Of a DNA stretch of 64,000 bases, positions 11,850-17,317 are shown piece by piece. A model generated the notes under the pieces. It searched no databases. It was not told the origin of the DNA and saw only the letters and a program-made list of their open reading frames with translations. Within the stretch, counting starts at the first letter, position 1; each line of letters begins with the position of its first letter. The position numbers and the translations under genes are program-made. The DNA is from Pleomorphomonas carboxyditropha (GTDB lineage Bacteria > Pseudomonadota > Alphaproteobacteria > Rhizobiales > Pleomorphomonadaceae): contig NZ_NQVN01000001.1 of NCBI RefSeq assembly GCF_002770725.1, positions 868,001 through 932,000 of the forward strand, read 5' to 3'.

Positions 11850-12968
11850 ATGTATGTCGCCGTCAAGGGTGGCGAGGCCGCCATCGACAACGCCCATCGC
11901 CTGCTCGCCGATCGCCGCCGCGGCGACCGTAGCCTGCCGGCCATCAGCGAGGCGCAGATCGCCGAGCAACTGTCGCTCGCCGTCGACCGGGTGATGGCGG
12001 AAGCCTCGCTCTACGATCCGGGGCTCGCGGCGCTGGCCATCCGGCAGGCGCGCGGCGATATGATCGAGGCGATCTTCATCCTGCGCGCCTATCGCACCAC
12101 GCTGCCGCGCTTCGGCATCAGCCGGCCGCTCGACAGCCGCGCCATGCGCATCGAACGGCGCGTTTCCGCCACCTACAAGGATCTGCCGGGCGGCCAGCTT
12201 CTCGGCCCCACTTTCGACTATACCCACCGCCTGCTCGACCCCACGCTTTCCGGCGATCCCGAAGTGCCGGAGCCAAGCCGTCGCGATGGCGGGGTCGGCG
12301 GCCTGGCGCGCGTATCCGACATCCTAGATGGCGAGAGCCTGATCGAAATGGAGGCCGACGAGGGCGCCGAACCGGGCGATATCACCCGCATGCCGCAGGA
12401 ATTTCCGCTGTCGCGCGCCGAGCGGCTGCAGTCGCTTGCCCGCGGCGACGAAGGCTTTCTGCTGGCGCTCGCCTATTCCACCCAGCGCGGCTACGGCCGA
12501 ACCCATCCCTTCGTCGGCGAGATCCGCATCGGCCTTGCGACGGTGGAGATCGATATTCCCGAATTGGGCTTCTCGGTGGCGATCGGCGAGGTGCGCGTCA
12601 CCGAATGCCAGATGGTCAACCAGTTCAAGGGATCGGCCGAGCGGCCGCCGCAATTCACGCGCGGCTACGGCCTGGTGTTCGGCCAGAGCGAACGCAAGGC
12701 CATGGCCATGTCGCTATGCGACCGGGCGCTCCGGGCGGCCGAATATGGCGAGGAGATCACCGCTCCGGCCCAGGACGAGGAATTCGTCATCTCCCATTGC
12801 GACAACGTCGAGGCGACCGGCTTCGTCGAGCACCTGAAACTGCCGCACTACGTCGATTTCCAAGCCGAGCTCGGTCTCGTCCGCCGGCTGCGCGCCGCCT
12901 GGCAGGAGCGCGGCGTGGTGTCGGAGGCCGAAGAGGGCGACGCGCCGATCGGGGAGGCCGCCCAATGA
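11850..12968 (+). CDS. phnI: C-P lyase core subunit PhnI
   Basis: A 372-residue PhnI, the nucleosidase-like subunit that acts with PhnG, PhnH and PhnL to displace adenine from ATP by phosphonate. The start MYVAVKGGEAAI and the blocks RTTLPRFG, TYKDLPGGQLLGPTFDYTHRLLD and KLPHYVDFQAELGL are characteristic. It is slightly longer than E. coli PhnI (354). Its stop lies inside ATGA at 12965-12968, where phnJ would normally be expected to begin; here phnJ begins only at 13183. Confidence 0.96.
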   Translation: MYVAVKGGEAAIDNAHRLLADRRRGDRSLPAISEAQIAEQLSLAVDRVMAEASLYDPGLAALAIRQARGDMIEAIFILRAYRTTLPRFGISRPLDSRAMRIERRVSATYKDLPGGQLLGPTFDYTHRLLDPTLSGDPEVPEPSRRDGGVGGLARVSDILDGESLIEMEADEGAEPGDITRMPQEFPLSRAERLQSLARGDEGFLLALAYSTQRGYGRTHPFVGEIRIGLATVEIDIPELGFSVAIGEVRVTECQMVNQFKGSAERPPQFTRGYGLVFGQSERKAMAMSLCDRALRAAEYGEEITAPAQDEEFVISHCDNVEATGFVEHLKLPHYVDFQAELGLVRRLRAAWQERGVVSEAEEGDAPIGEAAQ

Positions 12969-13186
12969 GCAACCCCCCAAAGCAATCACTGACACCTGTT
13001 GTCGCTATCGCCCCTGTTGCAATCGTCGCCGCCAGACGGACCATTAGACCAGATCGAGGAGTCGTCGTTGGAAGCGCTGCGACGAATGGCAACAACGCCG
13101 ACAACGATTACGACGATGGCAAGCAGGATGTCCTTAAGGAGTTGCATGTCCACCATCCTGTCATTGGAAGTGGCAAAAAATCATGA
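12965..13186 (+). CDS. 73-residue ORF linking phnI to phnJ, unknown function
   Basis: I do not recognise this product. The ORF starts at ATG 12965, inside the phnI stop (ATGA), with a very good Shine-Dalgarno GGGGAGG seven bases upstream. It ends at TGA 13184-13186, which overlaps the phnJ start, again as ATGA. It should therefore be translated and should pass ribosomes on to phnJ, whose own upstream sequence is a poor ribosome site. The peptide has a mildly hydrophobic segment (LTPVVAIAPVAIVAA) and a polar Asn/Asp-rich middle. By hand count about half of third positions are G or C, far below the neighbouring phn genes, so the segment looks foreign. It may serve only as a coupling leader. Confidence 0.4.
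   Translation: MSNPPKQSLTPVVAIAPVAIVAARRTIRPDRGVVVGSAATNGNNADNDYDDGKQDVLKELHVHHPVIGSGKKS
12986..13147 (-). CDS. Possible 53-residue single-pass membrane microprotein, antisense within phn operon
   Basis: On the strand opposite phn, an ORF starting at ATG 13147 (AGGA eight bases upstream; an in-frame ATG at 13156 would add three residues) encodes one clear membrane helix (LLKDILLAIVVIVVGVVAI), two arginines, and a polar Gly/Asp/Asn-rich tail with two cysteines. By hand count its third-position GC is about 70 percent, higher than the frame on the plus strand. The pattern resembles small bacterial membrane proteins, but I do not recognise a family. It overlaps the plus-strand ORF at 12965-13186; both cannot easily be conserved coding frames. 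Confidence 0.35.
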   Translation of the reverse strand: MQLLKDILLAIVVIVVGVVAIRRSASNDDSSIWSNGPSGGDDCNRGDSDNRCQ

Positions 13187-14031
13187 ACGCCGCCACCTAT
13201 AACTTCGCCTATCTCGACGAACAGACCAAGCGGATGATCCGCCGGGCCATTCTGAAGGCGCTCGCCATCCCCGGCTATCAGGTGCCGTTCGCCGCCCGCG
13301 AGATGCCGATGCCCTACGGCTGGGGCACCGGCGGCGTGCAGGTCACCGCCGCCGTCATCGGCCCCGGCGACGTGTTGAAGGTGATCGACCAAGGGGCCGA
13401 CGACACCACCAATGCCGTGTCCATCCGCGCTTTCTTCCGCAAAGTGGCCGGCGTCGCCACCACCACGCACACCGCCGAGGCGACGGTCATCCAGACGCGC
13501 CACCGCATTCCCGAATATCCGCTCAAGGAAGGCCAGATCCTCGTCTATCAGGTGCCGATCCCCGAGCCCTTGCGCTTCCTCGAACCACGGGAAACCGAGA
13601 CACGGGTGATGCACGGCCTCGAGGATTACGGCCTGATGCATGTTAAGCTCTACGAGGACATCGCCCATCACGGCCGGATCGCCACCGCCTACGCCTATCC
13701 GGTGAAGGTGGCCGGCCGCTACGTGATGGACCCATCGCCCATCCCGAAATTCGACAATCCGAAGATGACGATGAGCCCGGCCTTGCAGTTGTTCGGCGCC
13801 GGCCGCGAAAAGCGCATCTACGCCGTGCCGCCCTATACTGAGGTGAAGAGCCTCGACTTCGAGGATCATCCCTTCGAAGTGCAGACCTTCAACGAGCCGT
13901 GCGCTCTCTGCGGTGCCCGCAACGTCTACCTCGACGAGGTAGTGCTCGACGATCGCGGCGGCCGCATGTTCGTCTGCTCCGATACCGACAATTGCGAAAG
14001 CCGACGCACCGGGACGGGGGCGCAATCATGA
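13183..14031 (+). CDS. phnJ: C-P lyase catalytic subunit PhnJ (radical SAM)
   Basis: A 282-residue PhnJ, which cleaves the carbon-phosphorus bond of ribosyl phosphonate using a [4Fe-4S] cluster and S-adenosylmethionine. The four conserved cysteines are present at 240, 243, 265 and 271 (CALC, then FVCSDTDNC), each offset by one from E. coli. The start NFAYLDEQTKRMIRRAILKALAIPGYQVPF and GWGTGGVQVTAA are typical. Its ribosome site is weak (GGAAG about twelve bases upstream) and its ATG overlaps the stop of the preceding 73-residue ORF, so it probably depends on coupling. It overlaps phnK by ATGA. Confidence 0.97.
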   Translation: MNAATYNFAYLDEQTKRMIRRAILKALAIPGYQVPFAAREMPMPYGWGTGGVQVTAAVIGPGDVLKVIDQGADDTTNAVSIRAFFRKVAGVATTTHTAEATVIQTRHRIPEYPLKEGQILVYQVPIPEPLRFLEPRETETRVMHGLEDYGLMHVKLYEDIAHHGRIATAYAYPVKVAGRYVMDPSPIPKFDNPKMTMSPALQLFGAGREKRIYAVPPYTEVKSLDFEDHPFEVQTFNEPCALCGARNVYLDEVVLDDRGGRMFVCSDTDNCESRRTGTGAQS

Positions 14032-17061: not shown

Positions 17062-17150
17062 GGCGGCCAGCATCACGAACCAAGTTTCGAGCACGCGAGG
17101 CCGGCTGCCGGTTTCGTGGGTAGCGATCCCGCGCGCTCGTCTATCCGCGC

Positions 17151-17200
17151 CTAGAGCCTTTTCCCGATCGGGCGGAATCGCCCGGCCGACAAGAAAAGTC
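17151..17200. repeat. Degenerate palindromic repeat upstream of phnD
   Basis: CTAGAGCCTTTTCCCGATC opens a decayed palindromic element whose inner arms CGGGCG (17169-17174) and CGCCCG (17179-17184) still pair around GAAT. The opening resembles the CTAGAGC ends of the element at 8868-8924 and of rhizobial intergenic repeats in general, but the right arm is lost (only AAGAAAAG remains). It lies in the 256-bp gap between phnC and phnD, which holds nothing else I can name. Confidence 0.4.
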
Positions 17201-17317
17201 CACAGATTCAAAAGCTTGGGAATATTCGGTCGGATCGTTTCGATCCGGGCCGGATATGCCCCGAGGCGCAACATGACCATCCGACCGGCGGGGCCGGCGG
17301 AACCAGGAGTGAGACGG

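Follow-up and report, generated by a model that had tools for sequence, protein, structure and literature searches.

A gene on the minus strand, between phnI and phnJ of a C-P lyase (phn) operon, is well supported by the pattern of substitutions among related genomes. We consider it likely that a small protein is encoded here, by a gene set into the phnI/phnJ junction and head-to-head with phnJ. In the same reading, the product would be a single-helix membrane protein and expression of the gene and of phn would tend towards mutual exclusion. Note that C-P lyase cleaves carbon-phosphorus bonds and frees methane from methylphosphonate. The DNA analysed, referred to as the window, is 64,000 nucleotides in length and comes from genome G000. 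A preliminary description of the window had remarked on a foreign-looking segment between phnI and phnJ, and had overlooked the minus-strand gene within it. Coordinates are in Table 1.

Table 1. Positions, in the window, of the features discussed
Feature	Position	Strand	Remarks
phnI	11850..12968	+	last codons contain the strong Shine-Dalgarno sequence that phnJ uses in empty alleles
Sense ORF, 73 aa	12965..13186	+	shares the codon register of the antisense gene; not conserved
Segment between phnI and phnJ, 214 nt	12969..13182		aligned counterpart in 4, absent in 4, of 8 genus members with phnJ
Antisense small gene	12986..13147	-	start codon ATG at 13147; 53 codons, the last reaching 12989; stop 12986-12988
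Spacer, antisense start to phnJ start, 35 nt	13148..13182		antisense ribosome site and weaker phnJ site
phnJ (C-P lyase subunit)	13183..14031	+	head-to-head with the antisense gene

The junction and its two reading frames

The sequence CAATGA closes phnI (TGA at 12966-12968) and phnJ opens with ATGA at 13183. As first described, the junction is genuinely split, with 214 bp here compared to a 4-nt ATGA overlap in close relatives. The other sequence features in that description also held. A strong Shine-Dalgarno sequence (GGGGAGG) is found seven bases upstream of the left ATG, and the calculated duplex with the anti-Shine-Dalgarno sequence agrees (-10.8 kcal/mol). The phnJ ribosome site is weaker, at -7.8 kcal/mol. 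For reference, 1,000 random 20-mers from the window had a median of -5.0, a 25% quantile of -7.0 and a 5% quantile of -10.5. An open reading frame of 73 codons does run, in the sense direction, from the left ATG to the phnJ ATGA. The segment is 53% GC, with about 60-72% for the flanking phn genes in 200-nt windows. Third-position GC, put at about half by hand count, was computed as 0.53 in the sense frame; the value for phn genes is 0.87.

Among 14 genomes of the genus, eight have phnJ with a readable junction. Four are occupied (214 nt in G000, 238 in G001, 217 in G011, and 138 in G010) and these segments can all be aligned with each other. The remaining four are empty. Three of them, G012, G009, and G007, have the 4-nt ATGA overlap, and G006 encodes a PhnJ with a slightly longer N-terminus. 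The preliminary description had read the region as an insertion that produced a linking sense leader ORF, and had proposed comparing the junction in relatives. With four occupied and four empty sites, the insertion is supported. The leader, as the main product, is not, and the sense frame is broken in two of the four carriers.

The antisense ORF begins with MQL[LFI]K[DN]IL in all four occupied genomes. By hydropathy, the protein is predicted to have a single N-terminal hydrophobic helix, followed by a tail rich in D, S, G, N, and C. The ORF is complete in G000 (53 codons), G001 (61), and G011 (54). In G010 it has decayed; the tail and stop are gone, and the frame continues into the antisense of phnI. 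For the first 22 codons, in four genomes, the antisense frame has the lowest pN/pS of all six (0.32, the next being 0.50), and column permutation of this ratio gave P=0.0006. Minimum changes at codon positions 1, 2, and 3 number 13, 6, and 21 (P=0.002). Extending the count to 51 codons, in three sequences, gives 34, 21, and 39 changes. This is a weaker codon structure, and the tail is poorly aligned. Openness of the antisense frame in all four genomes is not significant alone, occurring in 13% of column permutations. Net codon-sized length differences were dropped as coding evidence, being trivial for any ORF.

Between the same pairs of genomes, antisense pN is 0.16-0.25, compared to 0.02-0.08 for phnI and phnJ; phnH, at 0.10-0.22, comes close to it. 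At synonymous sites the antisense frame diverges about as much as phnI and phnJ, or more. Judged by these substitutions, constraint on the antisense frame is genuine and loose. The gene is dispensable, since it is decayed in G010 and absent from four relatives. G000 alone has a strong ribosome site for it (-12.8 kcal/mol); the values are -7.4 in both G001 and G011, and -5.8 in G010. A scan of positions 12800-13400 identified neither a sigma-70-type promoter nor a terminator. No Pfam or NCBIfam family scored over its curated cut-off; TadE was nearest, at 19.5 of 22.9 bits, for the protein of locus L054 from the wider survey below. PHROGs, for which no cut-off exists, gave a best E of 0.066 with the window-genus proteins, the only ones compared.

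The sense frame behaves differently. It is interrupted by a TAG in G001, and by a frameshift in G010, and on these grounds a leader read from this frame was rejected as the principal product. Pairwise pN/pS is 0.61, against 0.32 for the antisense frame. Over the 53 codons that the two frames share, a sense stop would require an antisense TTA, CTA, or TCA. Only 8 of 3,109 phn-gene codons in the window are of this kind (P=0.87 for none). Because these codons are so rare, and the frames are in register, an open sense frame is expected across this interval. Openness of the remaining 20 sense codons is left unaccounted for by the antisense gene. In G001, the single antisense CTA coincides exactly with the sense TAG. 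Furthermore, sense third positions are half GC because they are antisense first codon positions. We conclude that the 73-aa sense ORF is probably a shadow of the antisense gene.

Alternatively, the inserted sense ORF might be translated from the Shine-Dalgarno sequence embedded in phnI, and pass ribosomes to phnJ by termination-reinitiation. That sequence is strong in all four occupied genomes, and the sense ORF ends within the phnJ ATGA in G000 and G011. Whatever the reading, ribosomes could plausibly start at the left ATG, and in these two genomes this may help them to reach phnJ. As an account of the segment, however, we regard this as unlikely. The gap between the sense-frame break and phnJ is 41 nt in G001 and 19 nt in G010, and in the reporter constructs of one study a gap of about 20 nt nearly abolished coupling (PMC10666635). 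The higher sense pN/pS, and the extent to which the antisense gene explains sense-frame openness, also argue against it. Retained coupling to phnJ had been part of the preliminary description. Since stop and start overlap in just two of the four occupied genomes, coupling is not a constant feature.

Probable gain and loss of the segment within the genus

The tree of phn genes is ((G000,((G012,G010),(G009,G001))),(G011,G007)),G006. Support is 71% for G009 with G001 and at least 96% elsewhere. On this tree, the simplest account would be that the segment was gained once and lost three or more times, with a plain ATGA overlap remaining after each loss. A single gain is favoured because the occupied segments align with each other. 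The apparent losses may be true losses, or replacements by recombination with empty alleles. The best quartet tree for the insert matches the phn tree, with slight support. The account rests on the phn tree because the rpoB tree is poorly resolved, and no rpoB was obtained from G010 or G011. Spacing also varies elsewhere in the operon. Between phnC and phnD (17062-17317 in the window) there are 246-256 nt in G000 and G009, and 145-161 nt in G012, G010, G001, and G011.

The segment could instead be a small mobile element that duplicated a 4-bp ATGA target and was excised precisely in relatives. ATGA is indeed present at both ends, as the preliminary description stated, and three relatives have plain ATGA junctions, which the phn tree would place as losses. 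However, the direct repeat by itself is no evidence of transposition because phnI cannot do without the TGA, nor phnJ without the ATG; both copies are under selection. There are no terminal inverted repeats, only internal ones, and all four carriers have the segment at an identical site and in the same direction. It is single copy in its own genome. The search for copies elsewhere, also proposed at the outset, returned no convincing example in the genus or in 397 genomes of the order. The remaining matches were weak, among them profile matches in eight genomes (E 1.8e-4 to 0.039). Neither segment nor protein had copies on plasmids, phages, or viral contigs. On this evidence a mobile element is very improbable. 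A donor was not found, so the description of the segment as foreign stays unproven.

Antisense ORFs at the junction in other genera

We compared 210 junction loci from Hyphomicrobiales (28 + 80 + 102), of which 200 are distinct. The set of 102 comprises 22 new loci and 80 stretches, taken best-scoring first, from 230 genomes with PhnJ matches. Junctions were considered long if more than 60 nt lie between the phnI stop and the codon that matches PhnJ residue 7 in the alignment; there are 45. These were scanned for ORFs of 34-110 aa with a 17-residue hydropathy of at least 1.9 near the N-terminus, and at least 62% D, S, G, N, C, or H in the last 16 residues. Note that this rule was fixed only after examples had been seen. 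An antisense ORF that fits is present in 12 of the 45 long junctions, three in the window genus and nine outside it. No sense ORF fits in any of the 45. Neither did any of 900 one-strand shuffles, nor any of 1,000 antisense 300-nt upstream stretches, which are mostly phnI. On both strands of the window, the antisense ORF at the phnI/phnJ junction is the only one that fits the rule. Across 676,532 bases of 91 phn-centred loci, rather than whole genomes, there were 11 finds, every one of them antisense and located at the junction.

By eye, further antisense candidates that do not fit the rule, and lie outside the 12, are found at L201, L079, and L232; L014, the decayed copy of G010, also does not fit. 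The ORFs of L079 and L232 are 29 and 56 aa long, with a hydrophobic helix and a different or missing tail. Other contents were also seen. In 12 of the 45 long junctions there is a sense-strand gene, of about 139 aa, resembling FosX (L055, L060, L061, L071, L072, L117, L122, L124, L189, L190, L199, and L289). Four of the 12 also have the antisense ORF. The L061 protein scores 218 bits with the NCBIfam FosX model, for which the cut-off is 170. L223 and L230 have another small sense-strand ORF between phnI and phnJ, with a hydrophobic N-terminal stretch. Nine of the 45 contain exact inverted repeats of 15-29 nt (L023, L024, L064, L096, L202, L212, L229, L234, and L269), and these nine have neither FosX nor the antisense ORF. 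The phnI/phnJ junction seems to gather several kinds of insertion.

A profile made from six antisense proteins gave two strong matches (E <1e-24) in 397 genomes of the order, both at the junction, and weak matches (E 4.7e-4 to 0.0099) in 20 further genomes. In Mesorhizobium, the genus of G121, 60 of 146 genomes match, and in all 60 the match is antisense and just upstream of phnJ. The other 86 are counted irrespective of phnJ presence. Assignment to Mesorhizobium relies on identity between proteins of the named loci L061, L122, and L124 and those of L313, L314, and L323. L061, a carrier of the antisense gene, comes from Mesorhizobium ciceri WSM1271. FosX is located between phnI and the antisense gene in 22 of the 60 loci. 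Tandem antisense copies occur at the junctions of L124, L323, and L339; L354 and L370 have multiple matches that may be broken or duplicated genes. L371 has an additional partial copy with no adjoining phnJ.

Codon structure was assessed for 55 of the Mesorhizobium ORFs, leaving out L354 and L370 (matches in pieces, with possible decay) and L357, L358, and L364 (missed only by a GW pattern). Over 33 codons, antisense pN/pS is 0.40, the lowest of the six frames, and the next is 0.55; 0 of 300 permutations did as well. Mean column entropy at the three codon positions is 0.56, 0.45, and 0.98. None of the 55 sequences has an antisense stop, and two sense frames are likewise stop-free in all 55. 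By these measures, the Mesorhizobium antisense ORFs show purifying selection.

Non-coding regulatory DNA, such as a phnJ promoter or leader with chance ORFs on both strands, would also be consistent with one property of the region. The distance from the antisense start to the phnJ start is conserved, being 35 nt in all four occupied genomes of the window genus; of the 55 Mesorhizobium sequences, 53 have either 59 or 65 nt. Even so, we find this explanation highly improbable, given codon-structured substitutions in the antisense frame of two separate groups. Rfam returned nothing near a gathering score. A consensus fold of -9.6 kcal/mol, with a covariation term of -0.12 and two-sided changes in 7 of 32 pairs, is weak. 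By eye, an inverted repeat resembling TTGG...CCAA recurs, together with an ATAGCAC block, in many spacers among L313-L369, in the stretch that separates the divergent starts; this may be an operator or an antisense promoter.

Rhizobium-type proteins were compared with 394 genomes of Rhizobiaceae, the family of G201. There were six matches, five at the junction and a sixth that is weak and has no phnJ nearby. Most of the carriers found belong to database families f1 and f23. The same build was recognised by eye on plasmids recorded for Allorhizobium pseudoryzae and Ensifer adhaerens E-60. In three PLSDB records consulted for annotation, no genes are listed at that place. Comparison of profiles for the Pleomorphomonad, Mesorhizobium, and Rhizobium proteins detected no homology outside the low-complexity tail, with only 7-9 columns aligned from small alignments. 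A common origin of the groups would be argued from place, direction, and build, there being no detectable sequence homology.

Proposed role and comparison with known systems

We propose that the antisense product is a membrane protein made up of one helix and a low-complexity tail, and that it acts at the membrane on phosphonate uptake or metabolism. Since an operon transcript must run through the small gene, the two RNAs would be complementary. Expression of the small gene would then tend to exclude that of phn, and the reverse, so that the small gene would be active chiefly while phn is off. The insertion would also shift phnJ from the strong ribosome site within phnI to a weaker one, lowering PhnJ relative to PhnI. 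Duplex energies of the phnJ site in the four occupied genomes are -7.8, -8.0, -4.9, and -4.3 kcal/mol, compared to -10.8 to -11.4 for the strong site.

More tentatively, these genes may encode a class of small membrane proteins not yet described, their place being within the C-P lyase operon, antisense and head-to-head with phnJ, in many Hyphomicrobiales. Place would be constant, and sequence would turn over, because it is the antisense position that is selected, through exclusion of phn and a reset PhnI:PhnJ ratio. While the operon is off, the proteins might serve in the handling of phosphonate or phosphate. In the part of the phn operon and C-P lyase literature covered, titles and abstract openings contained no description of this antisense gene.

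Complementarity to the operon mRNA could also suit a type I toxin-like hydrophobic protein, silenced by phn mRNA acting as the antisense RNA. Most finds are about 41-72 aa, with one hydrophobic helix by hydropathy, and a complementary operon transcript is expected. This is very unlikely, however. The long tail of G, D, S, and H is not a known feature of type I toxins, there is one locus only, and relatives without the gene retain no remnant of it.

A membrane protein gene excluded by phn, which we prefer, would matter in several respects. In one genus, place and direction bind it to the C-P lyase operon in all 60 carriers, making it a candidate for a missing component or regulator. Being short and antisense, such a gene can be skipped by annotation. 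The junction is also a natural experiment on the effect of an opposite-strand gene inside an operon, and on a tightly overlapped gene pair split and then rejoined.

Shadow ORFs arise opposite GC-rich genes, and this phenomenon explains most of the 73-aa sense ORF. Unlike the usual case, the minus strand here appears to carry the constrained frame, and the operon strand its shadow. Antisense ORFs of some genes have been proposed as possible genes for membrane-binding proteins (PMC10400600). The FosX-like gene shares the phnI/phnJ junction with the antisense gene; it differs in being on the sense strand in all 12 cases. Overlapping gene pairs coupled by termination-reinitiation are a known system (PMC10666635; PMC6728339). 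The empty alleles of G012, G009, and G007, with an ATGA overlap and a strong Shine-Dalgarno sequence inside phnI, resemble such pairs. Occupied alleles instead break the overlap, and two of the four have a stop/start overlap between the sense ORF and phnJ.

The best-fitting known arrangement, by analogy, would be the noncontiguous operon. An example of this type of operon, or excludon, is menE-menC-MW1733-ytkD-MW1731 of S. aureus, and reciprocal control through polymerase collision and RNase III is described for this layout (PMC7154746). Similarly, the phn locus has an opposite-strand gene between genes of what, from gene order and spacing, would be one operon. The genes from phnG to phnL are closely spaced, which is compatible with co-transcription through the antisense gene. 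Unlike the S. aureus example, the phn antisense gene is known here from sequence, has about 40-80 codons, evolves fast, and is often absent. A further difference is that the junction is a 4-nt overlap in close relatives with empty alleles, and that genes of the same build recur there in other genera.
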